Assembly: GCA_964035545.1 (NCBI GenBank) | Contig: OZ037766.1 | Coordinates: 31,030,273 to 31,094,272 of the forward strand | Reading direction: 5' to 3' | Length of the DNA stretch: 64,000 nt | From: Bugula neritina | Lineage: Eukaryota; Bryozoa; Gymnolaemata; Cheilostomatida; Bugulidae | Part shown: positions 35,201 to 64,000 of the stretch, piece by piece | Numbering within the stretch: position 1 is the stretch's first letter | Layout of the letters: each line of letters opens with the position of its first letter | Notes under the pieces: model-generated | What the model was told of the DNA's origin: nothing | The model's input: only the letters and a program-made list of their open reading frames with translations | Databases searched by the model: none | Program-made: the position numbers and the translations under genes

Positions 35201-36690
35201 CTTAAGCAGTTTATAGTGAATTAAGTTTTAAAATTATTACCTTGAAGTGCCTGTTCGTTTGCATTCAAAAATTCTTTAATGCAAAATTCTGCTTTGAGAT
35301 TGTTTTTAGATTTAGCTAATTCCAGTGGAGTGTAGCAGGGGTCTTTATAGTTTCCTACATTCAGTATTTTCATTCGCTCAGTTGGTGAAAGGTTGTTCAA
35401 CATATATCTTAACTTCTCTGTGTTACCATTGATTCCAGCTGTTCGATGCACAACAGTATCACCTGCATCATTTTCTATGCTGACTACCTTGTAGACAGCA
35501 TCTACTCGCACTGCAGCATCTATCAGGTATGTGAATGCTTCCATGTGGTCACCTGATGCTGCCTTGTGCAAAGCTGTATTACCAGATCTATCCTTCACAC
35601 TGAGTATTTTGTACAAATCATCTGGTGGTACTGAGTCTATTATACATTTCAGTGTTTCTATACAACCTGTGCTCTGTCCTCTTGCTACACAATGCAAAAC
35701 ATATTCTCCCTCTTTATTCTGTGATAGAAAAAGCCTAACCAAATCTGTTGATGATACAAGATCGGCTATACATTTCACTACTTCTGTATGCCCCCTCTCT
35801 GCTGCCAGGTGTAGTAAAGTATTGCCACTAGATCCGCATATTTGAAGTAGTTTGTATAGGTCAGCTACTGGTACAGAGCTCAGAATGTATTTGGTTATTT
35901 CTGAGTGGCATTCGCTTGTTGCTAAGTGCAGAGCTGTATTGTTTTCCTGGTCCTGAATGCAGAGTAATCTGTACAACTCATCCGCTGGCACAAATTCCAA
36001 TATGCATTTAACTGTATCCATATGACCTTCATATGCTGCCCAGTGCAGACATGTCTTATAATTCTCAAAGCTCTGTATGCTGAGAAGGTTGTACGATTCA
36101 CCGGCTGGCAAATAATTCAGCATGAATAACACGGTGTCTGTGTGTCCTTCACGCGCTGCACATTGTACAACTGTATTCCTTCCCCACCCCAACGTGTCCA
36201 TCTCCAACAATTGACGAAGCTTATCTGATGACAGAGACTCTGATATACATTTTATGATCTCTGTATGACCATAAGTTGCTGCCATATGCAAAACTGTTAT
36301 TCCATGAATTTTTCGAACACGAAATAGTCGGTACAAATCATTTGGCGACAAAGCGTCTACCACACACTTGACAATAGCTGTATGACCTCCACTTACTGCA
36401 TGGTGTATAGATGTACTACCATACCTATCTTGTTTGTTAAGTAACTTACAGAAGCCTTCTGGAGACAAAGATTCAGCTATACACTGCATAGTATCTGCAT
36501 AGCAACTTCTTGCTATTCGCATTAGCAAAGTTTCCCCTCTCTTCCCCTTTTGCTTGAGAACCTGATACTTGCTAGACTCTGATATAGAAGACAACACTTC
36601 TCTAAACTCCTCTGGATTTTTCATGCAATTTTTCAGCTTGCTGTACTTGCTAAACGACATTTCTATAACTCCCTCTCTGGTGGTGTCCAA
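32232..36690 (-). CDS. Ankyrin-repeat caspase fusion (cysteine protease)
   Basis: Exons: 36690-35241, 34972-34833, 34304-34107, 33906-33687, 33425-33294, 33146-33037, 32375-32232. All are in phase, giving 797 residues. Exon 1 encodes about eleven 39-residue ankyrin repeats. Exon 2 is a linker. The caspase p20 follows: VYRMSAPVRGRCLIINN, catalytic His in VIMTHGAENFLYGRDG, and catalytic Cys in IIIQACGGE (fits QACxG). An Asp-containing linker precedes the p10 segment GYRSARHTRLGTWMIRSL, where the usual SWR is SAR. The ankyrin array sits where initiator caspases carry DED or CARD. Weak point: the exon 2 donor is GTACAA. Without splicing there, the frame stops at 34824 and yields an ankyrin-only product; the caspase could then start at a Met in VYRM. 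The caspase domain is certain; the fusion is likely. Confidence 0.82.
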
Positions 36691-41500: not shown

Positions 41501-44500
41501 CATGCAGGTGTACTCCTCACCAGTTGGCTGCCGGCAGCATTATTGGCAGCTTCTTCTAGCTGACATTTTGACTCGTAGGTTTTGACAATTCATTGTTGGG
41601 AGTTGTCCTCTCATTGTTCCTAAGTATGAAAAAAGGTCCCATGCTGATGTCTGTATATCTGATAATGACCGAATTTCACCTTTGGTTTAGGATTAGAGTG
41701 GTTAATATTTGTAGCAAGCCATCAGAATTATTCTATAAGCAGGTTGGAGGTAACTAATTGCAGCAGTTTGTGGGTCTCCAGTTTAGGTTGTAGTTTTGTG
41801 CCCCAACTTCAAACTTGAGACCCACAAACTGCTGCACTCAGTCACCCCTAACTCGGAGCTGCTTATAGAACAACTCAAACCACCAGGCTATCCTCTTAGT
41901 GAGTTTTTACCATATCTGAGATGGTTGCCAATAAATTTTATCTAGAGTTGGAATAACTTGATAAGTGACCAGTGTGAATAATAGATTATACACTGGAGAC
42001 AGGTGGATAACTGAACATGTGAATTGATTTCAGGTGCAGCATGTGCCCTTCTACGTGAAAAGACCAATCACCATTGACGCATCCTCCCACCCTCAACTCT
42101 TTGCTTATGCTAATGGAGGTAACAAACCAGCATCTTACAGCGTGGACCTATCACACCCCAGGTGAGTTATCTCAGCCAATAAGGAGGCAGCTTTGATAGA
42201 CACGGTGTTTAGAAGAGTTCAGAAGTTGCTGACCTTCTGTTGTCTGTCTCAACGTATAATTTACAAGTCTCAGACGTGTCAAGCTATTGATAGGTTCATT
42301 ATCTTTGTTATTTGAGATGTGTGCTACTCACTTCTAGATAATATCACACATGAGATTGTCTACCTGCTTTGCCTAATGCCAAGATAATGATAGTTTATGA
42401 AAATTTCACTTTCTTCGAAGAAATTTTGAACTATTCTCCTCATAAAAGGATAAGGCAGGTGAAATGTCTAATAAAAAGTAAAAAACTAGCAGAGAAAAGG
42501 CTTTAAATTATTGTTTAAAGCCTGCCCCACCCAATTTTCAAGTTAGTTTGGTATCATAAACAAGAATACTTTATATATTCCCTAATGAACGCTTAGTTCC
42601 AGCAGGATGTTAGACGTGAGCATATTTTCTAGGTTTGGCCGACCTAAGCAAACTGACCAACTATCTGAGCCGATCAACAGAGCTCAGAGTAAAAGCCTTA
42701 GAGATGTGTTTGAAAAGGCAATACTGAGAGGGGACGTGGCTATATATTCTCCTGGTATTTCCTTGAATACTTTGTTACATTCTCAGTCTATTTGTCTCAT
42801 AATATCTTGTGCTGTATTTTAGTAAATAGTTCACTTGTTTCCTACTTTATTGAAGATGAGGACAGTGGAGTGATGCGAAACCCCAGCTTCATCACAGCCA
42901 GTCTTCCTAGACCAGACAAGCATAAACAGAAGTCTGCCACAATTGGTGGTGACAACTACATGCATATAGGTGAGTGTAATATGTGTTAACGCATGCATGT
43001 AGGTGAGTATAATATGTGTCAACACATGCATGTAGGTGAGTATAATATGTGTCAACACATGCATGTAGGTGAGTATAATATGTGTCAACACATGCATGTA
43101 GGTGAGTATAATATGTGTCAACACATGCATGTAGGTGAGTGTAAATTTTGTACTTTCTACAACATATACTCTTTTGCAGTATTTAGTTTGACTTTTGTAT
43201 GACATTTTTTATTAAGTCAGTTCGAGCTTTATTTGAGAACTAAGTAGGCTTTGGGATACCATGCTGACACCTGGTATCTTATGCTGACACCTGGTATCAT
43301 ATGCTGATACCTGGTATCTTATGCTGACACCTGGTATCATATGCTGACACCTGGTATCATATGCTGACACCTGGTATCACATGCTGATACCTGGTATCAT
43401 ATGCTGACACCTGGTATCTTATGCTGACACCTGGTATCATATGCTGACACCTGGTATCATATGCTGACACCTGGTATCATATGCTGATACCTGGTATCAT
43501 ATGCTGATACCTGGTATCTTATGCTGACACCTGGTATCACATGCTGACACCTGGTATCTTATGCTGACACCTGGTATCTTATGCTGATACCTGGTATCTT
43601 ATGCTGATACCTGGTATCTTATGCTGATACCTGGTATCTTATGCTGACACCTGGTATCACATGCTGACACCTGGTATCTTATGCTGACACCTGGTATCTT
43701 ATGCTGACACCTGGTATCTTATGCTGATACCTGCAGGTAAAAGTGGTTACCGGAAGAGAAATGACTACTTTGTCGACAGCTCCAGCGACTCCGACAGCGA
43801 CAGTGGGAGGGGAGGGCAGCACAATGACGCGTACGTTGATGACGCAAGCAGCACTGTTTCCGACGAGATGTTCAAGTCTACCAGTGAAGGGCCCGCTCAT
43901 TCTACTGGTTCGATACTACTGTAGAACTTAGTCTACTTGTATTGTAATATTTATCTCTGGTGTAATATTTCTGGTGTAATATTTGTGGGTAGTGGATGTA
44001 GTGTACTATATGCAGTGTAATAATGTATTGTAGCATTTACAGTGTAATGTTTGTGGTAGAACATTACACCCTGTTTAGGTATGACTACTTAGGTATGATA
44101 GGAAAGTTTACTTAACTTGAGTGGACATGGCTTTTTCTACACTCTCAAACTCTACTCTACATTGTAGAAACACAAAGACCCAAACGGGTATCACTACAAG
44201 TTGATATTGTGTGTAACTGCATTTACATTATATAACGTTTCTTTTTCTTCTATACGTTATTACTCTGTTATGTTCTAATACACCCACCTTTATGCTATGT
44301 AATCTATACTGAATAACATTTACATTTATATCTGTTTGGAAAGAAGTAGATGATAAAAAGCTGTTACAGTGTAGCAGTAGTTCTGGAAAAGCTGGTTAAA
44401 TATATCAGCTGTAGCAACGATTTCTATTTTTCAAGTTTCGAATATTTTTTTATAAAAACTTACTTTGATAATAAAATTTTGAGATTGTCAATTATATAGT

Positions 44501-47500
44501 TACATAACACCATTGTTTGTCTCTCATTTTTCTCTATAAATGCTAGTTGAATCCTTATTCGCCAGTTTGTGAAAGTATTTTTTAATTAAGACTCTTTTGT
44601 AGAAGAGGAAGAGTTTCACGTGCAGCCACTGCCCCACCTTCTCGATGTGGAAGTGGGTCACCAGGCCGGGCGGTCAACTCTGGGGGGTTTCTTCAAACCC
44701 AAGTACCGTGACTATCCCCGTAACAATGTGCACCGCAGCTCTGAGCGAGAGCATAAGGAAACTATAGACTCCGGAACCAGTCGTAATTTCCGAAACCTAC
44801 ACCGAAACTCTATTTCTCTAAACAAGGGGGATAACTCCGTACACAGAGATGGGAGTATGTTAACACATAGACAAGAACCAAGTAGTGACAGTGGTAGGTT
44901 ACCACGAACTAAGTTACTTATGGGAGAAAGGACTCAGACGGACTTAGTGCCCAATATTGGTACAGACTGGGACAGTATAGCCGTTGAAACTCAGGGTAGT
45001 GCTAGACAGGGTCGGATTGAAAGGCGGGACAGTAGGGGTGGCAGTCACAGCCCTCGCATGAGTCATAACAAATATTTACCGAAGAAAAGGCGGAATTCAA
45101 GGCCTCGATCTCCCCGATTAACCAGTCAAGACACAGCTTTCAATGGTTAGTCACTAAAGATTAGTATCTCCTTCTACATGCAGTTCTCACGTCATGTTTA
45201 TAGGAATGTATATCATTTTCATTGTCACTCACTTGGCAAGAAGAGTTAACTTGGTAAGACATGGCTGGCATCTTTGCGTTTCTCTTAGACATAATTTGTT
45301 ATGCCCAATGAGCAGTGATATGTGATACGCATCTCTGTTCTTCACTGGACTCAATCTTCTTATTAATTGTTTCCATAGCAACCGTATTTTAGTCCAACAG
45401 CAACACACCCATAGCCTGGGTTTCTTGCCTATAGCTAGTAACGTAAGTTTGGATTGCGTTTAAAGGTCCCCTTACTAAAATAGCTTTTGGCAGTTGAAAG
45501 CCAGCGGTGGCTGTGTGATTGGCTGACCACCTCACTTCACTAGCTATCATAAGTTTGTGTGACTTGAGTTGTATCTTCTGTGTAGATCTAGACAGTATTG
45601 AGGTGCTCAGCCCCGAGATTCAGAGACGACAAAGTCAACCTTTAGCTGTACCGCAACATCAGCGTGAGTAGTAGTACTAGTAGTAGTAGTAGCAGTAGTA
45701 GTAGCAGTAGTAGTACTAGTAGTAGTAGTAGTACTAGTGGTAGTAGCGGTAGTAGTAGTACTAGTGGTAGTAGTACTAGCGGTAGTTCTAGCGGTAGTAA
45801 TACTGGCGGTAGTAGTAGTAGTAGTAGTACTAGTAGTAGTAGTAGTAGTAATAGTTGTAGTAGCAGCAGCAGTAGTAGTAGTAGTACTAGCGGTAGTAGT
45901 AGTAGTAGTACTTATAATAACTAATAACCTGCTACATTGTTCAGGTCAAGGACGTCTCACAGCCGAGGGAACTCCCTTGGAACAGATGGAGTTGGAAGAC
46001 CCGCCGTGGATGAAGGCAGAGATCAGAGAGAGGAGACGTCGGAGGAATAAGAAGATCTGTGTAGCGGTGGTCATTCTCACTCTGCTGGGGGTTGTGGCTG
46101 GGTTGGCGGTCCTCCTCTCTCAGGTTCTAGTTCCTAAGGCTGAGGTGTCCAGCACTTCCTTACAGCCTGGTGAGTCATCAGCGTTTTGTTAACTGCAATT
46201 TTATTGGTCATTTGTGTGCTAGCTTTATTGTAATTGGTTATTGTCATGCGTTTTGATAGACTGTGGTTGTGTTAACTACATCTGGATTGGGTAATGAAAT
46301 GTGAACTAATATTCTATTGGTTGTTCTTTTGTTGCCGTTTCTCTGCTATTCACTCACAAACCTGTGCACTGCTTATGACAATGTGGAATATTTAGTTGGT
46401 TTTCTCAACACTTTTCTGGAATCTTCACGTTAATATTTGGTAGTTTATTCTGGCTGCTGATTCTTGGAGAATATGTTTTAATCAAATAATCCAGTAAAAT
46501 GGTTGTTTCTAGTATATTTCACTGTTCCTCTACTGAAGGTAGCAATAAGGCCTCTTCAAAACTTATCTAGTTGATAAGTTATGCTATTACCTAGACTTAC
46601 CACCAGAGCAGTTATTAGAAACTTTGCTATTTTGGCTCTCTGCATGGCATAGAATTGTTTTGCAATACTGTTGGGTTATTTTGTAGTGTCAGTGATACAA
46701 ACCACAACCCCAGTTCTATCCACTACAACCGCATCCACTCTTGAAACTCAAAATCTAAGTAAGTGCCAACCAAGTATGATCATGCAAGCAATTGTTAGAC
46801 TTCCTAGTAAGCTAAGCAAACTAATATCTTTGTTTTAGACACTAAATGTTATTTCTCAGATAAAAACTTGCCAATATTGTATGCCTTATTTAACACGAAT
46901 GTCAGTTCTTATTCTATAATGCCGTTATTTTGGGAAAATGGCTGATGTCAGCTTAGAGTATTGGTGATTCCAGTGATTTAGAATATTGAGTATTCCAACT
47001 TCAATCCTACTGCCTTTTGGCACTGTATCTCTTATCCACATGTTGTTATTTTTCCACATATCATTAGGTTATTGGGTGTGCACGGGTTACACCCATTTAG
47101 TAATCATTTACCTAGATGATAATGTGAACTCTAGTTTATGCTAAGTATACCACTGTGTCAGTGAAGCATTAAGCGTAAACATTGATAATTTATGTTCCTT
47201 TTTCCTTTCAATTAAGTCTAAGCTTAGTAGTCTTACACAGTATAAGGAGTAATAATGGAATTTGTTACATCATAGATGTAAAAAATAAAACATTTTCAAA
47301 TGGAGCCTAAGCTTACTCTTCTCATGGTGTCAATGGAACGAATCAAAGTGAAAGTTGGCATTATTTTAGGTTTTTATTCGTTTTATTTTTGGAGTTGTTG
47401 TTATTGCTATCATAAATCTCTCTTAGTTTAGATTCAATATTTTTAATTCTGTGCCATCTTCAAGACTATCTAGGTATTTTAATTCGGGATATTTTCTACA

Positions 47501-50500
47501 TTGGAGTTGCCCTATTTTATAAAACAAGTATTGCTAAATAGTCATACTGCTACTTTTCAATAGTTGTTCGAATGTGTTTGTAATTTCTAGCTCTGACATT
47601 CGACGGCTCCATGAGAGTACTGAATAAGGAGTTTGAAGTAGCTCTACAAAATCTCAGTAGCCCACAATCTATAACCCTGGCAAATGACTTTTGTGGCACG
47701 GTATGTTATCCACTCTAACCTAATGTAAATGTAAACCTTGACCTTGCTTAGAGTGCTTATACTGCATAGCTGTGGCTTCTCTCTTTCAGATGAAGAATGT
47801 CTTCACACTGAATGCCTCCAACAATGACTTCACATATGACAACTGCAGTGTGACCAAGTTCATGTGAGTCACAACTCCTACTTTCTGTGTGTCTGCTGCA
47901 GCCTTTCTATGTTGATAACATCATCAGTACAGTTTTGTCTTTTGCTGGCATAATTCCTGCTATTCAAACGCTATGCTAGGTTGGTGGGAGCTTTGGTTAC
48001 TAGTATTGATTGTAGGCGCTATTTCGTGTGGGTTGAAGAGCTTTTATATCCACTGATTTTCTTATAATCATAGCCCAACTTCTTTAGTCGGGGAGAAAAT
48101 TTAGGCATCAGAAAAACACAAAAAGCCTAAATTTTTCTTACCAATTGTAAATAACTTTTATATAGTTTTGGGTTACAGCTTTTGCAATCTAGGTTTTGGA
48201 CAATTGCTTGTCAAAGAGACTCTTTTCAAATCTCCGCAATTTTGAGCCGTTGCAATCTTAAAGCTACCTGAGTGGATAAAAATGTGTGTTGTCATAAAAT
48301 TTAAAGCTTCACCTGTCTTCGATATTATATTTTTTTCTAAAATTCGTTATGATTGGGAGGTTTCATGCTGATTGGCTGCGAACTCTTAATACGATTAGCA
48401 CCAAACTCGCAATGACTGCTTTTCATCACCACGTAAATTCGCTAGAACCATCTCTGGGTGAGTATTTCTAGCTCTTTTGATCACTTCTACTCTTTGTGAA
48501 TGTGTAAATGTTGCTAGTAACTTCTTAGTGCAGTAGTTGGCTGTAGCCAGAGTCAATGTTTTAGTTATTACTTGTATTTAAACTCAGTCTAGATTCTCAC
48601 AGTTGTGTGCTGTTGTTTTTTTAGAAATGGCAGTGTGATAATAAAGTTTGAACTGTTGCTGTTGACTTCAGGGTTGCCTTCTACAAACTATAGTGATCCG
48701 ATGGACATTATAACTATGGGACACTTTTGCCGCACTAATGTGAAGGACAATTCTTCTTGCTTGTTTTATTATTCAGATTTTGAGCTAACCCTTTTCAACA
48801 CTTCATATGTCACATCATATAACAAATCTACTTTCCCAGCTTTGGTATCATCCAGCATGTCTCCCATTGCACCTCTCTTTTCACTGAATGCTTCAACTTC
48901 AACGCCAGCTCCATCTGCCCCTTCAGCTCCCTCAAGCACTTCTGTCAAATCCCATTTGATCAGCTCAATAGAACGAGTGACTATCACTCCAAAACATTCT
49001 AAAGCTTCTACTGAAAAATCTACCAATGTTCTCTCTACAAGGAAACAGTCAATTAATTCTTCATTTAAGTCTCCCAGTGAGCCAGTCAGCTTTTCAAGTT
49101 TGAATTTTCCAGTTACATCACCTAGCCTAAATTCAATTAAACCATCAACCTTCTCTGCCGTCTTATCCTCTCAGTCACTGTCAACTATGACACCTCCTAC
49201 ATTTCCACTGTCCTCACCTATACCTGTGTCCATGTCACACCCAAAATTTTCATTTGCTTCTGTTTTTCCTAAAACAACACCAAAACCAGTTGATTTACAT
49301 ATTTCATTTCCTACTCACCAAGCATCATCCCCCCACGATTTAGCATCATCTACCACAACACCACCCACTGCGAAATCCAAGACCGCTGATGCTGCCTTTT
49401 CAGTATCAACAAATTTGAAACACCTCAAACCAACGCCTAGTGTATCACTCACAACAAAACCACCTGCCAAACCAATTGATCGGCTTACCATCAGAATTTC
49501 CAGCCCTACACAAAAGCCAATTCAGTCTGGCAAATCAGTTGTTTTTCCGTCCACCAAATCTTCAAACTCTAAAGATAAGAACTATAATTATAAAACTGGA
49601 ATTGATCATTGGCCAATTGCTACTCCTCCATGGAAACGATATGACTCATATTTTCATTAATTAGCTTGACCAAATCTCACCATATATGACATTAATATAT
49701 ATTTTACTTTGTGCTTACTGTTCAGGTATTTTGTGACAATTTAGTAGATTTATTCAGTTTTAATATCTGTTTAGAAAATTATTAGTTTTTTTGTGTTTTT
49801 AAATTAACAATTTAAAATGTTTTTTTTTTGATTATTGTGATACTTATCAAGATAATTACCTTCTGTTGATCACTCAACAACTGTTTTTGTTTTTATATTA
49901 ATAAACTCTCAACACTCAACCATTGCTTCTTGTCTTGCTGCTGGGAACTGGCTTACATGTTGTGCTGGATGTTACACTGTTTGTATTCTACTAAACTTCC
50001 TAAATTGCTTTCTAACTAGCAAGGGAGCGGATGAATTCCTCGCTGTAATATAATTAAAAGAAAACAACTAAATTATGCAGGTAAGATTATCGCTGCAGTT
50101 TATGTTGGTCGTGTAAAATTACTTGTAATAATTTGGTTAAGCTCCCATTATTTCAAGCCCCTATTTTACTTGCTGTTTTGTAGGGAGGGCAGTATTGTCA
50201 TAGATTTCAACTTGAACATCATTGCCAGAGTGAAGGGAGCAAGTACATCTAACTCTGTTGGAATAGGTGCTGTTGATAAGGTAGATCAAGCCAGAAAAGT
50301 TAATCAAATAAAGCAATTTACCAACAAAGAGTGGGCAAAACCGAATCCCGGTGGCGAGAGCTGGGTGGTTGATAACGTGAGACTGGAGTTGAACACGACT
50401 GAAAGTGATAATGAGCAGCACATTGACAAGTCACTGAATGTAACTGAGTTACCAACTTCTAAAAAACTGAAGCTAACCGTTACTCCTGCACCAACTACAA

Positions 50501-53500
50501 ACCCTACCACTACTACTGTTTCAACTACCACTACCCCTATGCCTACTACCACTACTAGAGTTCCCTCTACAACAACATCAACTAAAGCCACTGTCAGCTC
50601 AACTACTATGGTGGCTACCACCCGTAGATCAACGACAACAACTACGTTCTTTACTACAACGACTGAATTGCAAACCACAACAACTTTATCGCCTGCCACA
50701 ACAACTGCATTGCCAACTACGACAACCATGTCACCAGCCACAACACCAACCACAACACCAAATACAACGCCAACCACAACACTAACCACAACAACTGCAT
50801 TGCCAACCACAACAACTGCATTATCAAGCAGGCCTCCATCAAGATCAGCTTCCACAGCAGTGCCAGACAGTGATTCTGTTGCATCAGAAGAAGTGAACAC
50901 TGAAGGTGTTATTCCATTTACTTCTTCCAGGGCAACAGCTAGCACATCAGTAGCCACACCTAAACCAGTAACTCAAAGCCTTACTACTTCAAGCAACGGT
51001 AGTTCTGAATGCTTTATACATTTCTTAACGGAAAATTGTAACACTGCTTATTATCAATGTGGCACCACTAACGACCAAATACTATGCAGGAAGGGTATGG
51101 CATTGACATTAGAACTCACTCCATTTCCTTGGAACGATTCAGCCTGTACTATTCCAATAAACATATCTGCAGATAGCTCGACTTCTCTGAACGACAGTTG
51201 TCCTATTGAACGACAGTTTTTGCGTTACAATTGCCCTAGTCTCTTACAGATGGCGACACTACCTATGAACAACCTCGACTACATACCAGATTGTTGCCCA
51301 GTTGACTATATATTTGACAAGAATAGTAATACTTGCGAAGAGTGCATAGATTGTAGCTCAGCTGAATCTGAAGATGATACTGCATAGAAAGTGTCGTATA
51401 TTTCTTGTGTAGAAATCTTCAATCTAACTTGTTGAACTGGTAGAATATTTATTCAATATTAAGTTGCCCATTTTTGAAATGTTAAATTTCTGACTTCAGA
51501 TTTCTATATTTATCAAAGTTAGAGGTTTTCATTATCATACAAATAACATACTGTATAATCATATTTTTAATCCGTCCTTCAAAACTACTTATCTTCTCAT
51601 CATGCTAACATTTATTTATGGTGACAGAATATTTTGTTAATGTTATGGTGAAAGTCACATATTTATATAACATATTTTGCGCATGATACATATCGATATA
51701 ATGCAATTGTTGGTAATGGTAACATGTAATTGCGTTAGGCATTCAGTATTTAGCCTTTACTCTTTATTTTTCACAATAATTTATCATGGTTATCTCAAGT
51801 GTGTTATTATTAAAAATTTTCTCCCTTTAAAATCGTAAAAACATCGCACAATTTATGACATAAGGTAGCTTATATTTATTATAGCATTCCAAATAATTCA
51901 ATATTAGCAAATACATAGAGTTTACACTTCTTAATATTGCATTTGTTAGTCAGGTAGATTTTCTATGTTCTGTTCAACTATATTTGTAAAATTAACACAC
52001 TTTGTAAGAACGCATAACAACACTTAAGCTAGTATTTTTAGCTTATTTTTTGTTATTAAAGAAACGTAAATTTTTATGGTGATTTTTAAAGCATCTTTGC
52101 TGAAATTTTTAATTTATTCTTTATGTGTAATAATACCTTGAAAACATATTTTATAGCGCAATAAATTGATGAGTGTTTAAATGTAATTGTGTCATGTTTT
52201 GTGAATAATTTTTTTCCAAGTTTTGAAAATTCGGCGGTAATATCTTCACCAACTGTGTTTATCAACACATATCACTTTCTAGGAACGAGCGTTATGCCTA
52301 TTTGGTGGCTACGTAAGATTCATAAGCAGAAAATATAAAATAAACAAAAAGCAAAAGTACATCGTATATTTTTACAATTAATTTCTTATTTACTTCATCA
52401 TATATTGGCATACCAAGCTCCCAACCTAGCTTAGCATATCTGCGAAATCATACATCTTTTGTATTAAATGTTGATGACTGTATATGTGGAATGCGGTGTA
52501 TCATGTAGAAATGGCAGCATCGTGATAGAATTCAGGTTAGAGTTTATGGCAGCACCCAACACTTCTCTATCCACTGAGTGCGAGTCAGGTGCCGACAACT
52601 GCACCGACAGTTGGACAGAAGAGAGTGTAACAAATCATTTGAAAACACATTTTGGTAAGTGGCAGCAATAGACCATGTAAAACTCAGCCAATCAGCGAAG
52701 TGTACCAGGTCAATGTCTTACCATTGTAACTGATATAAAATTCTGCAAGTTCAATTGCAAAATGCATGCTTCTAAAAGCTAGTTGTGCAACTTTTTTTTT
52801 CATGCATTATTTAATTTCATATCTTAAATTGATGACTCTTGAAATGATTTTTTAAAATGTCTAAATTAAGTATTTATAAAACGCAATTAAAAATTGCATG
52901 TCTAGAAAAATGACCTGGTACACTTTTGCAACTTAAGGCCAATTATTACATAAGGGTCATTTTACTTAATTTAGTACACACTCGAAATCTTCAGTTTTTA
53001 GCTATTTTTCACAATTTAGCTGGTAATGAGCATGGTTTTTTGGCCAAAACTAGTTAAGCACCAATAAATACACCTAAATAATCGAAGTTCTTTTTAATTT
53101 TGTTTCATTTCCCACGTTTTTCCCTAATTATTCAGCTAGTTTTGGTTACGGACCGTTACGGTTTTTTCGTAACGTCCGTGCATATAGAATATTAAGTGCA
53201 TATGACAATGACCTGTGCTTTAATGTTGGGGAATCCCCTCCCAGCCTTTGCTGTTATGCGTAATTAAAACCAGCACATAAAAATACCATGTATAGTAAAT
53301 TTCAATGGATTTGGAGCAAACTTTAATGTTAGGTCATAATTTGCTGGTGTGTACTAAATGAAGTAAACTGACCCATAACTGCCAGCTTAGTAGTTATTTG
53401 TTGTTGCAGCTTGAATGGGTTATTGTTTAGCATTGGAAGCTTGCAGTAAACATCTGTGAATTTGGTACATGACTTTGATTGGCTGGTTTTTGAATGGCCC

Positions 53501-56500
53501 TTTAGTATATGCATCTGGATGGCTGGGTAGTGTAGACCCGCCTACATCTAGCTAATGTACAGTAGCCAATCCACAGTAGTATTACGAAATTTCTGTTTAA
53601 CAAATGAAATATTCTGGTCATTTGTTTTGTACTTTACAATAGTAAATATTCTATTCAACTAGAATTTTATTGTATGTAAGCCATGGGAACTACTAAGAGG
53701 TTAAATCAACCACCCATGCTGGTAATATTGTAGCTCACAGTCATAGCAAGTCCACACCATATAAATATACACATAAGCTATTATGTGCAGCTTATGAATG
53801 CTGAAATGACCCAATTTCTTACTTTCAATTTGAAAAAAATTGTATTACATATTCTGCCACTTCTGCACCAGGAACTTGTTTTCCTTTTAAATTTTGAAAA
53901 TAGTAGTCAGTTTCTATAGCAGTCAACATCCACAATAAACAACGTAAGCTTTCAAATAAACTATTAATATATGAAATATTAGTGTGGAAACAATGTAATT
54001 TATTCATTGCTATGATGAAAAATTACAAGAATATTATATAAAAGCTAGATATAGATTTCTAGTAAAATGGCACAGGTAAAAATAACACATTTTTACTTCA
54101 AATTCTAAATTTCATCAGTCACCAATGGTGGCTGTAGATTACAGAGAGCACAGCAGACTATCACAATCTTGTCTAATAGAGGTGCCAACACCAAGTTCAC
54201 ACCTCCAGGACCATTTAAAATATTGAACTCCTTTATTCTTTTGATTGCTCTTTCGACATGGATTCGAAGGTTAGCAATCAACTTTGTTTGCAGTAACTGC
54301 ATTTTAGTCATTTGCAAATGGCCTCTTTTCCCAGGTGGTATGGCCAACTTGGCTCCAGCGCCTATAAGTTCTTCTTCAATAAGAAAGCCTCTATCTGCCA
54401 TGACCACATCATCTGGGTTTATGAAGTCTAAGAACCCAGAGTCATTAACTACACACTTGTCTGAGGCTCTACCTCCCATTCCATGCGAAATAAAGCAGAT
54501 AGTGCCCCTGGGTGTAATTGCAACCAAATACTTAATGGTGTTGATATTTTTATACTTACTCCATGTTAAATATTGAGCCAGCTTTGATTGAGGTTTGCAA
54601 ATGAATATTTCTGTGTAGTCTATAATGCACCTAATGTTAGCATATTGGCTTTGAAAGCTCAGAGGGATGTTCTTGTTGGAAAAACTAATAGATTGTTCAG
54701 TTCTCTTGCTAAAATATCTAATGTGTTTTTGAAGGTTTTGCTTGCTAGCAATCTAGAGATATAAAAAAGGCCAGCAAGTATTTGAAACTGTAAACCTTGA
54801 CGCAGCTTCATCAAAGCCAATAAAAGTTTATCTTGTCTTGTTAACTTTTTTCTGAGAGTGAGAACTTTCATCTTCAGACATATAAATCTAAATATAGTAA
54901 ATAAAGAATGAAAATTAAATTATGATTCAAATTATATGTATGTGCTAAATAAATTTTGTGCTTAGTTTGTATTCATTCAGCAGTTTTTACCCTCTGGTAA
55001 GTAGCTTCAGTTATATTTGCAACAACTATGAAGTTCAAGAACTGCTAGCTGAAGGCTTGACCCAATATATCACCATCCAAACAGAATGTAATGTGTGTCA
55101 ACATGTGTTACGTAATGCTGTAACAGTACATAATAAGCTAGTTGTATGAATACATGCTTTGAATGAAGTCATGAGTTTAAACAAATAGTGTTGACCAACA
55201 ATTATTACTTCATTTTATAATTATACTATAACTAATTCAAACCCATATTATTTCTAGAATAGCATTTAATAATGTTTGTGAATGAGTGAAACTAGTAACA
55301 AGTGTAAACCATTTTAGTTTTAAACACTGAGTTAGTTTCAGCTAAAAATTAGATTAGGAGGCCACTTTTGATAAGCTTTAAAATAACCAAGGAAAATTTA
55401 AGTCAAAACAATTTACTTTTTCTGGAGAAAGTGAGTCAATTTGTCCACAAATAAAAGACTGCTGCTTGTTTAAATAAAACCCTAAACTAAATAAGTCGAA
55501 GCATACAGATGACCACTGTGGTATTTATGAATATCTTACATAAAACAACATCTTTAATAAAAAATGTATGAATGATGCACTCACACTGCAACAAATTTAA
55601 TTAAAATGACAGTTTTACTACACATCAAATTTAATCAATGTAGAAATTTTAGCATAGTGAAACTTGCATTGTTTATTTGTAATAAACCATAGTCTATCTT
55701 TGCAATAAGAAAATCATAATTTTTACCTTGCTAAAAAATAGTATAGAGAACGTGTAGGTATTCCAGTATAGAATTTAGTTTGCTCATCTGTAGTGGTGAA
55801 AGTTTTAAAAACTTACTTTTTCAATAGTTGCTTTTTGTTTAAAGGTGGAACTTTTTGAGCCTTTTCTTCCAACTTTTGATTTTCGTCTATCAATAGAATG
55901 TGCAGATCTTTTTTTTGAGTAGTTGATGGTTCTGGTAACTCAGTTACTTCTGATGAAGTCTGACTATGAGGATGGCTGTCAGATGAGTTCTGTTGCTCTA
56001 TATCAGCTGACTCTGTTGAAGACGTTTTTGTTCGCTTCCTTCACATGTTTCATTAAAACCACTGTTTTTTGTGCGTCTTACATTATATGTTTTAGTGCGT
56101 TAGTAACCCAAATGAAAGATTGGAGTTGGATTTTGCTCAGTGGGCTGACCATCCTTATGATTATGATAGTCTGCTATGCTCTCTGTAATCTACAGCCACC
56201 ATTGGTGACTGATGAAATTTAGAATTTGAAGTAAAAATGTGTTATTTTTACCTGTGCCAATTTATAGAAATCTATATCTAGCTTTTATATAATATTCTTG
56301 TAATTTTTCATCATAGCAAGAACTAAATTACATTGTTTCCACACTAATATTTCATATATTTATAGTTTATTTGAAAGCTTACGTTGTTTATTGTGGATGC
56401 AGTTGACTGCTGCAGAAACTGACTACTATTTTCAAATTTTAAAAGGAAAACAAATTCTTGGTGCAGAAGTGGCAGAATATGTAATACAATTTTTTTCAAA

Positions 56501-59500
56501 TTGAAAGTAAGAAATTGGGTCATTTCAGCATTCATAAGCTGCACATAATAGCTTATGTGTATATTTATATGGTGTGGACTTGCTATGACTGTGAGCAACA
56601 ATATTACTAGCATGGGTGGTTGATTTAACCTCTTAGTAGTTCCCATGGCTTACATACAATAAAATTCTAGTTGAATAGAATATTTACTATTGTAGAGTAC
56701 AAAACAAATGACTAGAATATTTCATTTGTTAAACAGAAATTTTGTAATACTACTGTGGATTGGCTACTGTACATTATCTAGATGTAGGCGGGTCTACACT
56801 ACCCAGCCATTCAGATGCATATACTAAAGGGCCATTCAAAAACCAGCCAATCAAAGTCATGTACCAAATTCACAGATGTTTACTGCAAGCTTCCAAAGCT
56901 AAACAATAACCCATTCAAGCTGCAACAACAAATAACTACTAAGCTGGCAGTTATGTAATAATTGGCCTTAAGTTGCAAAAGTGTACCAGGTCATTTTTCT
57001 AGACATGAAATTTTTAATTGCGTTTTTATAAACACTTAATTTAGACATTTTAAAAAATCATTTCAAGAGTCATCAATTTAAGATATGAAATTAAATAATG
57101 CATGAAAAAAAAGTTGCACAACTAGCTTTTAGAAGCATGCATTTTGCAATTGAACTTGCAGAATTTTATATCAGTTACAATGGTAAGACATCGACCTGGT
57201 ACACTTCGCTGATTGGCTGAGTTTTACATGGTCTATTGGAGTAATAGTAGCAGTTTTGTGAAAGAATGTGTGTATGCGTGTTCGAACATATGTATTTGGT
57301 GTGTGTACACACACACACACACACAATATGTTATCTAGATAAATTATATAACTTGTGATTAGTGTTGGGAAAGTTTCAAAAGTCTGTCAGCTGTAATAAT
57401 TCTATAGGAGCTCATGTTGTCAACTTGATAATTAGTTTGTCTGTTAACTTTGCAGAGAAAGAGTCTCTTAAGGATGGAAACAACCTAACCTTTGAGAAGG
57501 CGAGTCTGAGTGTAGAGAGAAAGAGTCCTGGGAGAGCACCGACTAAGCCGTCTGTAACCACCAACTCTTCCGTGCCTACAGTAACAGATAGAGCTAATAC
57601 TACTACCACTACAGTAGCCACTACAGTAGCTACTACATCTACTCAGTCCGTTACCACAACACTTACCACACCTTCAACAACTACCTCTAATGCACCATCT
57701 ACCACTACTACTTTATTAGAAACCACAGAAAAACCCACTGGTACGGAAAATATAGCATTCTTGAGTTTTTGTACTGTGCAATGTGATTTCCTTGCTTAGT
57801 GTTTTTTGTACAGATTTATGAAGGAGGTTTAATCACACAGCTAAGTCACCAAATCTATAGCATCCAGATATTAATATTTTATTGTCAATTCTGTCACAAT
57901 TTCATTAACGAGTGTGTACACCTTGATGAGAGTTATCGGTTATTTTGCATTTTTATAAAGGCTAGTGGTGATAAAACCTCTTTTTTCTTAGTTTTATCAA
58001 GTTAAACACAAAAACATGTGATTGGGTTTTGCTAAGCTTCCTGTTGCCATGTAAGCTGTAGGTTTAATTTTGATTTAGTAAGTAGTAGGTAACATATTCT
58101 GTTCAGGTACATATTGAACAGGATAGAAAAAAGTGGTTGGAAATTGAAAGCTGATGGCAAATTTTGTTTGCTTATTAGTCATTGGCCAGTTTAATATTAC
58201 TACCATAGACTAGTGAAGTTACCATATATTTGAAGTTGCAGGGCTGGCCCTCTTCATACCCTCAATCAACAAGTTTGTAGCTTCAATGGAACTCTATGCT
58301 ATAGCTTCTACCTTTTGCTCTGAAGCGGTTTTCAATTTGCTGTCAGCTAAATTTATCACAGTTGTATTTCAGTAGTTGAATTCTCAACTTGTTGCAGCTA
58401 ATTCTGTGATGCTTCTAATCAACATTTCAGTTACTACCAGGGAGATCTCCATGAGCAGTTCAGCACAGACTCTGACTGACACTCACTCATCCACTCTGAA
58501 CTCTGTCACTTCTACTACTATGACCTCTACTTCTACCTCACCTGTCTTTAACAGTTTTGGTACCACTGGTGGTACTACTAGTGGTGGTACTACTGCTACT
58601 ACCACTGTAGATCTCACTACTCATTATCCTGCCAGTCCTACTCCCACTACTATCAGTGCAACCACTACTACCTCTACTCTCAGTCCGACTACTATTCCCA
58701 CTACTGCTCCCACTACTAGTACCGCTACTACTACTCCCACTACTAGTACCGCTACTACTACTCCCACTACTAGTACCGCTACTACTACTCCCACTACTAG
58801 TACCGCTACTACTACTCCCACTACTAGTACTACTACTATTCCCGACACTACTGCTACTACAACTACCACTACTCCCACTTATACTCTCTCTACTACTACT
58901 AGTACTACTACAACTACTACTACTGTTGCTACTACTACTCCCACTACTACTACTACTACCACTACTACTCCCACTACTACTACTACTCCCACTACTCCCA
59001 CTACTACTCCCACTACTACTCCCACTACTACTACTACTCCCACTACTACTACTCCCACTACTACTACTACTACTCCTACTACTACCACTACTCCCACTAC
59101 TACCACTCCTATGACCACCACTACTACTACTACTCCCACAACTACTTCTACTACTACCAGTGCTCCTGCTACTACTACACTAACAGGTTAGAAAGAGCTG
59201 TTTTATTTTTCTGCTGGTGTGGGGTCATGGTTGAGGGTGCTCTTCCTTATCTGGTATCAGAGCGGTACCGTCTACTGTACGGCTCTCTTACCATTGCATA
59301 CCTCCATTTCATTATTTCATAGAGGTTTGGTTTGTTTCCAAATAACCTTTGGTTTAGAGGGGAAAATTGCATGATTTTGCCTTGGCCTGGACTCCAATCA
59401 CAACTAAGTGAATAGTGTTCAATAAGTGAGTAATTTACAGACTGGCTTTACATCGGTATCTTCTTGAGCTATCACCCAACCTTCAACTATTCTTTCCCGT

Positions 59501-61004
59501 TTCGATCATTTTCTTATTTGATTATGGAGACGGTATAGTCAGCTTCAACTGGTAGTTTCATACATTATTTTGTTAGCCAAGAACAATTTATACAGATTCA
59601 CAGTGCATTTCAATTCAAAGCAGTTTCAAGCTGTAAGTGTATGAAACTGTGGTTTTTTTATGCAGAGTTTTTATACCCCCTAAACACACTTTGCCGTAAA
59701 GTAGACTGTAAAGTAAAATGTCAGCCATTTTTAATGTATCCGGACCGAAGTTTTCAAAGTCTGCTATTGGGTACGATATGACACCTCATTGGACATTTAT
59801 ATTCAATGAGTTGATGAGAACGTCTCATTGTTCAATAGAAGTCTGACACAATTTTTTTTAATCCATCAGTGCTTGATCCTGACGTACCGTAACTTCGTAC
59901 GGTCAGCTCGGACATTGTGAAAAATGTCTGCCATTTGACGATACCGTTGACGTTACGCAAAGTGTGTCTAGGGGGCAAGTATGTATATGTACTAAATTCC
60001 TAGCTGAGAGTATTTCTTACAGCTTTAAAACCTTGAGACCGCTCTTTCTTTTCATAGAGTATGTGACATGCTTCTACTAATATCACTGTTCGCACCTACT
60101 TTCTTCCATTTTTATAAGAGTATATACCATAATACAACCTAGAAAATAGTTCTACACAATGGCAAGCAATGTTTTTACTCTTGCGTAGGGTGTGCTGCCG
60201 ATGGTAAGATAAACGCTGGTATGTACGAAGACGAGGAAAATTGTACTAGCTACTACGTTTGCTATGATGACATAGGTCCTAGAACTAATAACTGCTTACC
60301 AGGCACTATGTACAAAAAGGAGACAGAACATGCTGGCGGATGCGTAACGTAAGTGGCTGCTCTGTTACATGTGATATATCTTTGTCGGGAAGTGCCAACC
60401 AATGAAAATATCTTGACAAGGGTCTGTTTGGTGCTGTTACAATTACTCATCTTGCACACAATGGCAGGTGTCTGCCAGGTGACAGTTACTTACCGTGTAC
60501 CCACAATGGCAGGTGTCTGCCAGGTGACAATTACTCACCATGTACCCACAATGGCAGGTGTCTGTCATGTGACAATTATTTACCATGTACCCAGAATGAC
60601 AAATGACAGTTTCTCATTCTGCAAACAGTGACAAGTGTCTGTTCATGTGACAGGCACTTGTCATTATCTGTCACTTGACGAGTGTCTGTCATGGTCATGT
60701 GACACTAGTGTAAGCACAGTGACAGGTGTCTTTCTGCTGTCATGACAGTTACTTGTGTCTATCACGTGACTTACCCACCATAAAGTCGCAAGTTAATATA
60801 TGTGTTTGGACTTATTAAAATATTTAATATTTTTACTTAACCTTCACTAATTTGTACAACAATGTGTCATTCTAGAACTTGCTGGTATCTGTTTGTTCAT
60901 GTCTCATTCCATTTGAATCTTATGACATATTAGATTTGTCTTCTCATTTTAGCTGTGATACTAAAGTTTGCCCCACATGCATCCCCCTTTCTACAGAATA
61001 TGAG
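38558..61004 (+). CDS. Type II membrane mucin with SEA domain and CBM14 module; continues past 61004
   Basis: Exons: 38558-38587, 42034-42161, 42603-42754, 42856-42969, 43737-43907, 44603-45145, 45586-45663, 45945-46169, 46687-46758, 47591-47700, 47790-47863, alternative exon c 52509-52654, 57456-57740, 58431-59186, 60189-60348, 60953-61004; in phase throughout. Start MDGQQQFLKP. A long charged, Ser/Arg-rich cytosolic part ends RERRRRRNKK, followed by the anchor ICVAVVILTLLGVVAGLAVL. Basic residues before it imply N-in. A Thr-rich linker and a SEA domain follow (LTFDGSMRVLNKEFEVALQN ... FCGT ... YDNCSVTKF, then NGSIVIEF). Next come Thr/Pro mucin repeats and a chitin-binding peritrophin-type domain (CTSYYVCYDD ... 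CLPGTMY). Exon 3 has a NAGNAG acceptor. Exon 5 can also read to a stop at 43922. Two other terminal exons are listed separately. Likely an epithelial surface or cuticle-contact mucin. Confidence 0.82.
41731..41875. repeat. Imperfect hairpin in mucin intron 1
   Basis: The inner arms 41761-41784 and 41811-41834 match 23 of 24 bases as inverted repeats around a 26-base loop. Weaker pairing continues outward (TTCTATAAGCAG against CTGCTTATAGAA). It could be a small fold-back MITE or a structured RNA. Confidence 0.7.
42970..43140. repeat. 33-bp minisatellite repeating the mucin exon 4 donor
   Basis: About five units, each containing CATGCATGTAG followed by GTGAGTATAATATGTG. The first bases copy the exon 4 end and its donor at 42970. 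The period is 33, so each extra donor would add 11 in-frame codons. Confidence 0.9.
43254..43733. repeat. 20-bp minisatellite ending at the mucin exon 5 acceptor
   Basis: About 24 units of TTATGCTGACACCTGGTATC, with GATACC and CATA/CACA variants. The last unit reads GATACCTGCAG and forms the exon 5 acceptor (exon begins at 43737). Confidence 0.9.
45664..45920. repeat. (AGT)n microsatellite starting at the mucin exon 7 donor
   Basis: The donor GTGAGT runs straight into AGTAGTACTAGT triplets for about 250 bases. The poly-Ser and poly-Val ORFs here are artefacts; exon 8 begins only at 45945. Confidence 0.9.
48625..49660 (+). CDS. Alternative terminal exon a of the SEA-mucin gene
   Basis: After a TTTTTTTAG acceptor the phase-2 frame joins exon 11 (ending 47863) and reads NGSVIIKFELLL, the last SEA strand with the G-S cleavage motif. 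About 330 residues rich in Ser, Thr and Pro follow, ending at a stop at 49660. Joined to the common exons it gives a 910-residue protein. Two cysteines occur near the start (GHFCRTNVKDNSSC). There is no chitin-binding domain. An AATAAA at 49900 fits its own 3' end. No donor is needed, so this is a terminal exon; the mutually exclusive use is inferred. Confidence 0.8.
49900..49905 (+). promoter_or_regulatory. Poly(A) signal after alternative exon a
   Basis: AATAAA about 240 bases after the stop of exon a, followed by T/GT-containing sequence. It supports use of exon a as a true 3' terminal exon. Confidence 0.5.
50184..51387 (+). CDS. Alternative terminal exon b of the SEA-mucin gene
   Basis: After TTTTGTAG the phase-2 frame gives EGSIVIDFNLNI, again the last SEA strand. 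Then come about 80 residues, a Thr-rich mucin stretch (PTTTTVSTTTTPMPTTTT and similar), and a Cys-rich end: SECFIHFLTENCNTAYYQC ... LCRKGMAL ... PWNDSAC, resembling a degenerate peritrophin-type chitin-binding domain. Further cysteines follow (DCCPVDYIFDKNSNTCEECIDC), with a stop at 51387. Joined to the common exons it gives 966 residues. The valine-rich minus-strand ORF across it is a shadow of the Thr codons. Confidence 0.8.
52954..53374. mobile_element. Nested 421-bp MITE with ATAA target duplication
   Basis: The ends are imperfect inverted repeats (GGGTCATTTTACTTAATTTA on the left; the right end complements it with a few changes). ATAA flanks both sides (52950-52953 and 53375-53378). The right arm of the host transposon preserves the empty site, with a single ATAA. 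No coding capacity. Confidence 0.85.
54105..54875 (-). pseudogene. DDE transposase (DDE_Tnp_4 type), frameshifted
   Basis: The N-terminal part (TRQDKLLLALMKLRQGLQFQ ... AGLFYISRLLASKTF) resembles the helix-turn-helix region. After a frameshift near 54680 the frame continues with NIPLSFQSQYANIRCIIDYT, TWSKYKNINTIKYLVAITP, VVMADRGFLIEEEL and RIHVERAIKRIKEF, ending at the stop at 54105. The probable catalytic triad is present: Asp in IIDYTE, Asp in ADRG, Glu in HVERA. The frameshift and the lost 5' portion make it inactive. The family is the THAP-containing ISL2EU/Harbinger relatives. Confidence 0.85.
56102..56165 (-). pseudogene. THAP-domain-like C-terminal fragment of the transposase
   Basis: Encodes HKDGQPTEQNPTPIFHLGY, resembling the end of THAP-like zinc fingers fused to such transposases. 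The upstream part, with the zinc-binding cysteines, is missing: the sequence switches at about 56164 into the inverted right arm. Confidence 0.6.
57307..57325. repeat. (AC)n microsatellite
   Basis: A run of about nine AC dinucleotides in the intron before mucin exon 13. Confidence 0.9.
60455..60600. repeat. 45-bp minisatellite in a mucin intron
   Basis: Three and a bit copies of a unit containing ACAATGGCAGGTGTCTGCCA then GGTGACAnTTACT and CCGTGTACCC. Degenerate TGACAGGTGTCTGT words continue to about 60770. It lies about 100 bases after the donor of exon 15. Confidence 0.85.
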
Positions 61005-61179: not shown

Positions 61180-63520
61180 TTGTTTGTCTCCGCCCACTGT
61201 AAGCTTACTATATACTGCAGTCTATGTCTCCGCCCACTGTGAGCTCACTATATACTGCAGTCTATGTCTCCGCCCACTGTGAGCTTACTATATACTGCAG
61301 TCTATGTCTCCGCCCACTGTAAGCTTACTATATACTACAGTCTATGTCTCCGCCCACTGTGAGCTTACTATATACTGCAGTCTATGTCTCCGCCCACTGT
61401 GAGCTTACTATATACTGCAGTCTATGTCTCCGCCCACTGTGAGCTAACTATATACTGCAGTCTATGTCTCCGCCCACTGTGAGCTTACTATATACTGCAG
61501 TCTATGTCTCCGCCCACTGTAAGCTTACTATATACTGCAGTCTATGTCTCCTCCCACTGTGAGCTTACTGTATACTGCAGTCTATGTCTCCGCCCACTGT
61601 AAGCTCACTATATACTGCAGTCTATGTCTCCGCCCACTGTAAGCTTACTATATACTGCAGTCTATGTCTCCGCCCACTGTGAGCTTACTATATACTGCAG
61701 TCTATGTCTCCGCCCACTGTGAGCTCACTATATACTGCAGTCTATGTCTCCGCCCACTGTAAGCTTACTATATACTGCAGTCTATGTCTCCGCCCACTGT
61801 AAGCTCACTATATACTGCAGTCTATGTCTCCGCCCACTGTAAGCTCACTATATACTGCAGTCTATGTCTCCGCCCACTGTGAGCTTACTATATACTGCAG
61901 TCTATGTCTCCGCCCACTGTGAGCTTACTATATACTGCAGTCTATGTCTCCGCCCACTGTGAGCTAACTATATACTGCAGTCTATGTCTCCGCCCACTGT
62001 AAGCTTACTATATACTGCAGTCTATGTCTCCGCCCACTGTGAGCTTACTATATACTGCAGTTTATGTCTCCGCCCACTGTGAGCTTACTATATACTGCAG
62101 TCTATGTCTCCGCCCACTGTAAGCTCACTATATACTGCAGTCTATGTCTCCGCTCACTGTGAGCTTACTATATACTGCAGTCTATGTCTCCGCCCACTGT
62201 AAGCTTACTATATACTGCAGTCTATGTCTCCGCCCACTGTAAGCTCACTATATACTACAGTCTATGTCTCCGCCCACTGTAAGCTCACTATATACTGCAG
62301 TCTATGTCTCCGCCCACTGTGAGCTTACTATATACTGCAGTCTATGTCTCCGCCCACTGTGAGCTTACTATATACTGCAGTCTATGTCTCCGCCCACTGT
62401 AAGCTTACTATATACTGCAGTCTATGTCTCCGCCCACTGTGAGCTTACTATATACTGCAGTCTATGTCTCCGCCCACTGTAAGCTCACTATATACTGCAG
62501 TCTATGTCTCCGCCCACTGTGAGCTTACTATATACTGCAGTCTATGTCTCCGCCCACTGTAAGCTCACTATATACTGCAGTCTATGTCTCCGCCCACTGT
62601 AAGCTTACTATATACTACAGTCTATGTCTCCGCCCACTGTAAGCTCACTATATACTACAGTCTATGTCTCCGCCCACTGTGAGCTTACTATATACTGCAG
62701 TCTATGTCTCCGCCCACTGTGAGCTAACTATATACTGCAGTCTATGTCTCCGCCCACTGTAAGCTTACTATATACTGCAGTCTATGTCTCCGCCCACTGT
62801 AAGCTCACTATATACTGCAGTCTATGTCTCCGCCCACTGTGAGCTTACTATATACTGCAGTCTATGTCTCCGCCCACTGTGAGCTTACTATATACTGCAG
62901 TCTATGTCTCCGCCCACTGTAAGCTTACTATATACTGCAGTCTATGTCTCCGCCCACTGTAAGCTCACTATATACTGCAGTCTATGTCTCCGCCCACTGT
63001 AAGCTTACTATATACTACAGTCTATGTCTCCGCCCACTGTAAGCTCACTATATACTGCAGTCTATGTCTCCGCCCACTGTGAGCTTACTATATACTGCAG
63101 TTTATGTCTCCGCCCACTGTGAGCTCACTATATACTGCAGTCTATGTCTCCGCCCACTGTAAGCTCACTATATACTGCAGTCTATGTCTCCGCCCACTGT
63201 GAGCTCACTATATACTGCAGTCTATGTCTCCGCCCACTGTAAGCTTACTATATACTGCAGTCTATGTCTCCGCCCACTGTAAGCTTACTGTATACTGCAG
63301 TCTATGTCTCCGCCCACTGTAAGCTCACTATATACTACAGTCTATGTCTCCGCCCACTGTGAGCTTACTATATACTGCAGTCTATGTCTCCTCCCACTGT
63401 GAGCTTACTATATACTGCAGTCTATGTCTCCGCCCACTGTAAGCTCACTATATACTGCAGTCTATGTCTCCGCCCACTGTGAGCTTACTATACACTGTAG
63501 TCTATGTCTCCGCCCACTGT
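61180..63520. repeat. 40-bp satellite array, about 58 units
   Basis: The unit is TCTATGTCTCCGCCCACTGT followed by GAGCTTACTATATACTGCAG. Variation is concentrated at two sites: G or A after CACTGT, and T, C or A after AGCT. It lies downstream of the last recognised mucin exon (ending 61004), probably in the next intron. No open frame with gene character covers it. Confidence 0.95.
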
Positions 63521-64000
63521 GTTCTGATCCATTCTGGAATGTTACTTGCCTGTGGCGCGTAGTGCTGAGGTATTCTCTGCATCGTGAAGGTGTTATCTGC
63601 AATACAATTACTGCAGATAGTTGTTACAGGTGCTATAGCTTGCAGGTGTGCTAGGTAGTATATTATGTAGTGTATGCTAGGTAGTATATGATGTAGTGTA
63701 TGCTAGGTAGTATATTATATAATGCTGCTAGGTAATATATTATATAATTTACATCAGCCTCATTGTCAAACTGGTTGGCAAGGGTTACTACAGCGATAGT
63801 GGCTATCTGTAGAAAATTATATTATGCAGTATTTAGCAACTGTGTAGTGTGCAGCTACGTAGTTTATACAGGTGCTACACGCTATCTGTTGCTATTCACT
63901 CAATTACTACTGTATCTTCACACAGTCAACATTCTCAGCATGAATATGTGTTCTGGAGTTGCCTTCTTCCTGCTGTGGAAAAATAAGAAAACGGTTTTCT
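63521..64000. other. Flank of the satellite, no exon assigned
   Basis: Contains about four degenerate copies of a TGCTAGGTAGTATATTAT unit (63645-63755). The next mucin exon is expected here or beyond the window, but no stretch has a convincing splice-and-frame match. Confidence 0.5.

Follow-up and report, generated by a model that had tools for sequence, protein, structure and literature searches.

SEA stems of type II proteins, mucins with a SEA domain and alternative last exons are each already known. In a 64,000-nucleotide stretch of chromosome 2 of the bryozoan Bugula neritina (C2:31030273-31094272; hereafter the window, with positions counted from its first nucleotide), we have examined a gene in which all three appear to be combined. 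We consider it likely, judging from the genomic sequence, that this gene encodes a type II membrane protein and can finish in any one of three 3' ends, each excluding the other two, i.e., three heads carried on one SEA anchor. An earlier note on the window had proposed that three alternative exons exchange the ectodomain at the SEA self-cleavage site; its observation is confirmed by our analysis, and its interpretation is partly supported. The genome searched is the 215.85-Mb assembly, with 295 contigs.

The SEA domain of matriptase, which is a type II protein, undergoes a cut at G149-S150 as the protein matures, the fragments are tightly bound and the ectodomain is held on the membrane; shedding requires a second cut further on, and cleavage needs the serine hydroxyl and strain (available text of PMC5567652). 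That is, the matriptase fragments stay bound until the second cut, and "cut" therefore need not mean "shed". Like matriptase, TMPRSS11D and TMPRSS6, the protein predicted here has a cytoplasmic N-terminus, one membrane span and a SEA stem, and its SEA profile matches TMPRSS11D and TMPRSS6 (see below). Unlike the type II serine proteases, it has mucin-like heads, three alternative C-terminal halves of the SEA domain (C-halves) and no protease domain in the head parts that were scanned.

Transmembrane SEA mucins such as MUC1 and MUC16 are type I proteins in which the mucin lies ahead of the SEA domain. In the gene described here, by contrast, the mucin follows the SEA domain, and the outer chain would be the C-terminal one. 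With MUC1, MUC16 and others it shares a Ser/Thr/Pro-rich domain together with a SEA domain, the combination that serves as the working criterion for transmembrane SEA mucins (available text of PMC1552070).

The nearest system is human GPR110 (ADGRF1). A GSIVA site lies in its SEA domain, about 24 kD into the protein; the product of exons 1-6 amounts to 23 kD, and a terminal exon 7a can be spliced onto exon 6 (available text of PMC2830182). Judged by these masses, the border between exons 6 and 7 of GPR110 may lie at the SEA site. As far as that text describes it, however, exon 7a adds several residues, truncates the protein and supplies no second SEA half.

Alternative 3' exons on a common 5' part are also found in Drosophila mod(mdg4), which is not a surface protein and in which we know of no split domain. 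There, any one of numerous alternative 3' exons is attached to the common 5' exons, and the products, unlike those proposed here, arise by trans-splicing from separate promoters (available text of PMC12692577). The earlier note knew of no described system of the same design as the Bugula gene. No case in which splicing within a single SEA domain offers a choice of C-halves at the scission point was found among the literature matches listed or in the available text of PMC2830182, PMC6954182 and PMC1552070.

The constant part of the gene consists of eleven exons:

38558 to 38587, + strand: exon 1, with the putative start codon, MDGQQQFLKP; open frame, gtgagt donor
42034 to 42161, + strand: exon 2, cytoplasmic tail; open frame
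42633 to 42754, + strand: exon 3, cytoplasmic tail; open frame
42823 to 42969, + strand: exon 4, cytoplasmic tail; open frame
43737 to 43907, + strand: exon 5, cytoplasmic tail, acidic and serine-rich; open frame
44603 to 45145, + strand: exon 6, cytoplasmic tail; open frame
45586 to 45663, + strand: exon 7, cytoplasmic tail; open frame
45945 to 46169, + strand: exon 8, the single membrane span VAVVILTLLGVVAGLAVLL
46687 to 46758, + strand: exon 9, short Thr-rich linker; open frame
47591 to 47700, + strand: exon 10, first part of the N-terminal half of the SEA domain (N-half); ends in phase 0 after FCGT
47790 to 47863, + strand: exon 11, second part of the SEA N-half; ends in phase 2 at the cleavage loop

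Joined, exons 1-11 (38558 to 47863) comprise 1700 nt, i.e., 566 codons and two bases, in a single open frame. This frame begins with a long hydrophilic tail, continues through one strongly hydrophobic stretch and a short linker, and closes with the SEA N-half. The hydrophobic stretch begins at residue 446 and has a mean hydropathy of 2.97. N-terminal of it, in exon 8, is the sequence RERRRRRNKK; because these basic residues precede the membrane span, we infer a type II orientation of the anchor. Exon 11 ends in phase 2 within the SEA domain, with ...NCSVTKF followed by AT, as previously described.

Downstream of exon 11 are three sets of exons, here named A, B and C, each opening with a different SEA C-half:

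48625 to 49660, + strand: exon A, candidate alternative last exon; NGSVII SEA C-half, Ser/Thr/Pro-rich stalk, conserved 30-residue tail, stop
49900 to 49905, + strand: AATAAA 3' of exon A
50184 to 51387, + strand: exon B, candidate alternative last exon; EGSIVI SEA C-half, Thr-rich stalk, 12-cysteine end, stop
52160 to 52165, + strand: AATAAA 3' of exon B (also ATTAAA at 51809)
52509 to 52654, + strand: exon C1, NGSIVI SEA C-half, part 1; weak acceptor tract
57456 to 57740, + strand: exon C2, rest of the SEA C-half, mucin stalk
58431 to 59186, + strand: exon C3, mucin stalk rich in Thr and Pro
60189 to 60348, + strand: exon C4, CBM14-like domain, 20.3 bits (cut-off 22.1)
60953 to 61004, + strand: exon C5, after which the C branch runs on beyond the window

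The acceptors of A, B and C1 follow YAG and lie 761, 2320 and 4645 nt, respectively, from exon 11. All three phase-2 joins to exon 11 are open, in one frame with exons 1-11, and read I-NGSVIIKFEL for A, M-EGSIVIDFNL for B and I-NGSIVIEFRL for C; the strand motif common to the three at the phase-2 acceptor is G-S-[VI]-[VI]-[VI]. The acceptors, strands and preserved frame reported earlier are thus borne out by the sequence and by the pattern scan described below. In addition to the shared donor, each 3' end has a compatible acceptor, a stop and a poly(A) signal, as alternative last exons do. The earlier note had counted two stop codons and a single nearby AATAAA. A and B do stop within their exons; B, too, has poly(A) signals, and C stops outside the window, where two more exons in the neighboring sequence (locus L011, exon borders placed by eye) lead to a stop at L011:2725 and an AATAAA at L011:2747.

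The reading frames of A and B are far longer than chance would give. In 20000 random sequences matched to them in dinucleotide content, neither the 344 codons of A nor the 400 codons of B were ever open (0/20000 each), and the SEA half of B by itself was open in 24 of 20000 sequences of like make-up. Ser, Thr and Pro together make up 43% of A and 41% of B. A codon-usage score pointed to the true frame in B, C1 and C4; for the whole of exon A it gave 0.100 to a minus-strand frame vs 0.044 to the true one, and the score was not used as evidence. Separate genes for A or B were considered and rejected, as no ATG in frame precedes the SEA strand in either exon. A hydrophobic ATG frame of 27 codons is present at 47973, with no link to exon A.

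Membership in the SEA family was assessed with the Pfam profile PF01390, whose cut-off is 26.4 bits. In SEA-only constructs, the N-half alone scores 24.2 bits, and with the C-half of A, B or C the score becomes 29.7, 32.8 or 33.0 bits; as controls, the N-half joined to the C-half of another SEA gene of the genome scores 39.4 bits, and joined to a hand-made scrambled decoy, 23.7 bits. In longer constructs, B and C score 30.3 and 29.8 bits. These matches stop at positions 72-77 of the 106 in the profile, and the remainder of each C-half was assigned by length and by eye. Against solved structures, a profile of six SEA domains of the genome (the three isoforms, all with one N-half, included) matches TMPRSS11D (E 6e-4), ADGRF1 (0.008) and TMPRSS6 (0.012); a single-sequence search of the same structures with the SEA domain of one isoform gave chance matches only. 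The gene thus has the SEA stem and, in the orientation proposed above, the type II anchor of the type II serine proteases.

G and S are invariant in all seven aligned C-halves (7/7), and all three exons carry the strand motif at the expected place. Pairwise, the C-halves share 11 of 53 (A/B), 12 of 56 (A/C) and 20 of 63 (B/C) aligned residues, i.e., 21-32%. The statement that the exons diverge completely after the strand is therefore correct insofar as the sequences differ; it misses that each exon set continues through the C-terminal half of the SEA fold. A search of the genome with the N-half joined to the half of C, in which the best candidates were scored, found nothing outside the gene at E up to 1, and therefore no nearer N-half partner of A, B or C is known.

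We then scanned for a DNA pattern made up of YAG, one base and X-G-S(AGY)-[VIM]3-x-[FY]. Within the window, this phase-2 pattern occurs at three places on the + strand (A, B and C1) and at none on the - strand, and it is absent from 300 random sequences of the same dinucleotide content. Genome-wide it occurs at 23 places, 12 of which are one satellite; the other 11 are three in this gene, three in other SEA genes (loci L005, L009 and L037) and five that are unconfirmed as SEA exons. The backward control gave 0. The phase-0 version of the pattern gave 9 places, 7 from one satellite (backward 0), and the phase-1 version 4 (backward 3); none of these lies within 25 kb of the Pfam SEA matches of the genome. 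With TCN serine codons there are 9 places, 5 of them beside SEA N-halves; because the backward control of this version gave 10, the count proves nothing alone. One of the other four, at assembly coordinate C1:30885093 (not to be confused with exon C1), reads NGSVIVEF and may belong to a further SEA gene.

Elsewhere in the genome we read eight N-halves and eight C-halves, with one C-half per N-half: two sets at L005, four in the tandem cluster L006-L008, and one each at L009 and L037, whose N-halves were traced in their first part, with no exon located for the second. This survey is incomplete and covers the best-scoring candidates of the genome searches and part of the pattern matches. All eight other C-halves start at a phase-2 acceptor at the GS strand. 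An intron at the cleavage site is therefore general in this genome, and the idea of a special intron placement in this gene was rejected. Four N-halves, including that of this gene, also have a phase-0 intron just past FC or its equivalent (by eye). For three more weak Pfam SEA matches (of 11), which thus stay unconfirmed, no C-half strand was found in the 10 kb read around each. What is peculiar to this gene is its three C-halves per one N-half, vs one each in the eight others read.

The generality of the intron bears on whether the SEA domain is cut at all. The three isoforms might exist with the SEA domain as an uncut stem, the joint position being a by-product of an old intron; this would replace only the cleavage part of our interpretation. 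Given the eight shared acceptors, the position indeed needs no special explanation. However, the G-S pair, which is cut in matriptase, is kept in all three C-halves, and we regard an uncut stem as possible but rather doubtful.

Among the other SEA loci, L006-L008 (C2:12.932-12.958 Mb) holds four very similar tandem N-half/C-half pairs and is probably a recent SEA gene cluster. L005 (C2:997000-1006999) encodes a hydrophobic stretch, two SEA domains, Thr-rich stalks and, by eye, an LDL-receptor-like cysteine stretch. A search of the genome with the start of exon A found four weak matches in addition to the exon itself; the strongest lies on C7 (32% identity, E 0.003).

Exons A and B both have open counterparts in public sequence. 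That of A is EB796_021193 (P0002, on a 172-kb contig) of B. neritina, which we take to be from the 2020 draft genome; the annotation of that draft was made with AUGUSTUS and transcriptome hints. The model starts at an internal Met and is without the first 25 residues of exon A, so that the comparison leaves out the GS strand. Over the aligned region, 269 of 313 residues are identical (86%). Identity is higher in the SEA half and tail (65/67) than in the stalk (204/246; Fisher p 0.002), and, the missing start aside, the gaps (12 columns) are confined to the stalk. The last 30 residues of exon A (49568-49657) are identical at 29 of 30 positions and follow a variable stalk; this conservation makes a function of the tail likely.

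The counterpart of exon B, P0001 (JGI source), begins at the V-I of the strand, which places the G-S outside the comparison; 347 of 395 residues are identical (88%), as are all 12 cysteines and all 24 residues of the linker. The earlier note had raised the possibility that 48625 and 50184 are dead copies. Because open and similar counterparts exist, we set this reading aside for A and B: their identities of 86% and 88% speak against it. The protein difference from the window is 14% for P0002 and 12% for P0001, and it would be compatible with separate lineages grouped under a single species name.

The three branches differ in what follows the stalk. In C there are two CBM14-like domains, one in exon C4 (20.3 bits) and one in the last exon (23.3 bits; PF01607 cut-off 22.1), which resemble each other at E 2e-4. 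In B, the C-terminal 132 residues hold all 12 cysteines of the exon. No Pfam match was found for this end at E up to 10, no relative among solved structures and no second copy in the genome; its likeness to the heads of C is at chance level, and a structure prediction from two sequences reached a mean pLDDT of 36.5. For exon A, a Pfam scan recognized no head domain. The chitin-binding heads suggested in the earlier note are therefore supported for C only. The Pfam scan gave no match to a C-terminal trypsin domain in A, B or the scanned parts of C (C3, C6 and most of the last exon lie outside the scan). By its Ser/Thr/Pro content, SEA match and membrane span, the protein has the PTS-rich region and SEA domain of a transmembrane mucin.

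Several observations weigh against three functional branches. All three are known from genomic sequence alone. The acceptor tract of C1 has 7 pyrimidines in 17 positions and is the weakest of the 17 acceptors counted (A 12/17, B 13/17, constant exons between 8 and 14). An ATG in frame with C1 also lies 14 codons 5' of it, so that a separate start is conceivable. In the longer construct, the SEA domain with exon A scores 25.7 bits, marginally below the Pfam cut-off. The counterpart of A is annotated as a stand-alone protein of 319 residues, unjoined to the anchor. In B, the SEA half (63/72), cysteine end (117/132) and stalk (143/167) hardly differ in their identity to P0001; because the SEA half is about as conserved as the stalk, the pattern of B alone is no sign of selection on its SEA half. 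Finally, a search of the protein database with residues 400-780 of isoform B found no relative, which is a weak negative, as at most 8000 candidates were scored and P0001 is outside the length limits.

On these grounds it could be argued that one branch is real and that the other two are seldom-used cryptic exons or remnants, now in decay, of an exon duplication; a transposon that adds about 4.6 kb to the C1-C2 intron points the same way as the weak C1 acceptor and the even conservation of B. The open counterparts of A and B speak against this view, however, as does the concentration of the substitutions of A in the stalk. The SEA halves, at 21-32% identity, are therefore not fresh duplicates. 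In the C branch, C1 is followed within the window by four more exons that keep the frame, and the branch carries CBM14 domains as well as a stop and a poly(A) signal of its own. We thus consider a single real branch unlikely.

The annotation of A's counterpart as a protein of its own also lends something to the idea that A and B belong to genes of their own, or are 3' units with separate promoters that are trans-spliced to the anchor as in Drosophila mod(mdg4), where common 5' exons and several 3' units follow the same outline (available text of PMC12692577). However, A, B and C1 are on the same strand and within 4.7 kb of exon 11, so that ordinary cis splicing suffices, and we judge this explanation to be highly improbable.

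The explanation we favor is therefore still that of three heads on one SEA anchor. The constant exons would encode a 566-residue anchor comprising the cytoplasmic tail, one span and the SEA N-half, and the phase-2 donor of exon 11 would be spliced to exon A, exon B or exon C1. Each choice would bring a different SEA C-half, completing the same fold around the common N-half, and, beyond a mucin stalk, a different tip: the conserved 30-residue tail in A, the 12-cysteine end in B or the two CBM14-type domains in C. A and B would serve as last exons and bring poly(A) signals of their own, and C would be chosen once both are skipped. Because its acceptor tract is the weakest, the C branch probably needs help or an absence of competition. 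By analogy with matriptase, the completed SEA domain would cut itself at G^S and the halves would remain bound. The anchored chain would then derive almost wholly from the constant exons, and the outer chain wholly from the chosen exon. From the heterodimer so held, heads might be lost after the cut by force or by further proteolysis. Of the earlier proposal that one type II anchor presents and sheds alternative heads, the anchor, the SEA N-half and the three alternative exons at the self-cleavage site are retained, whereas transcripts, cleavage and shedding have the standing of predictions, as do topology and function.

A stronger form of this proposal, to which we give even chances, is an exchange of split domains: one membrane-held SEA half would fold with, cleave and non-covalently carry any of three strongly diverged halves, and the outer subunit would be swapped as a whole by the choice of exon, with no change in the anchor or its long cytoplasmic tail. 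The exon border and the expected border between the mature chains coincide within about three residues. That is, a splice border would lie inside one domain, at the very bond that this domain is expected to break. Ectodomain diversity made by splicing mostly exchanges whole domains or loops. If real, the arrangement would be a natural experiment in which one N-half folds with three C-halves sharing 21-32% of their residues; it also suggests a use for an intron at the cleavage position. Should the halves be able to separate and pair anew, anchors already on the cell surface could even have their heads exchanged. For a colonial animal, the result would be three surface coats on one cytoplasmic tail.

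Elsewhere in the window, on the minus strand at 29208-30521 and 35221-36735, are two long open frames, each a single exon, whose products resemble ankyrin repeats by eye. The introns of the gene contain several repetitive elements. At 52666-57238, in the C1-C2 intron, is the DNA transposon mentioned above, whose DDE_Tnp_4 transposase (146 bits) is encoded by the minus strand; its arms are inverted repeats in six pieces, about 1.1 kb in total each and 93-99% complementary. The intron 5' of exon 5 holds a 20-bp repeat in 23.6 copies (43261-43733), which stops three bases before the exon, and the intron 3' of exon C5 holds a satellite of 58 copies of a 40-bp unit (61185-63521).

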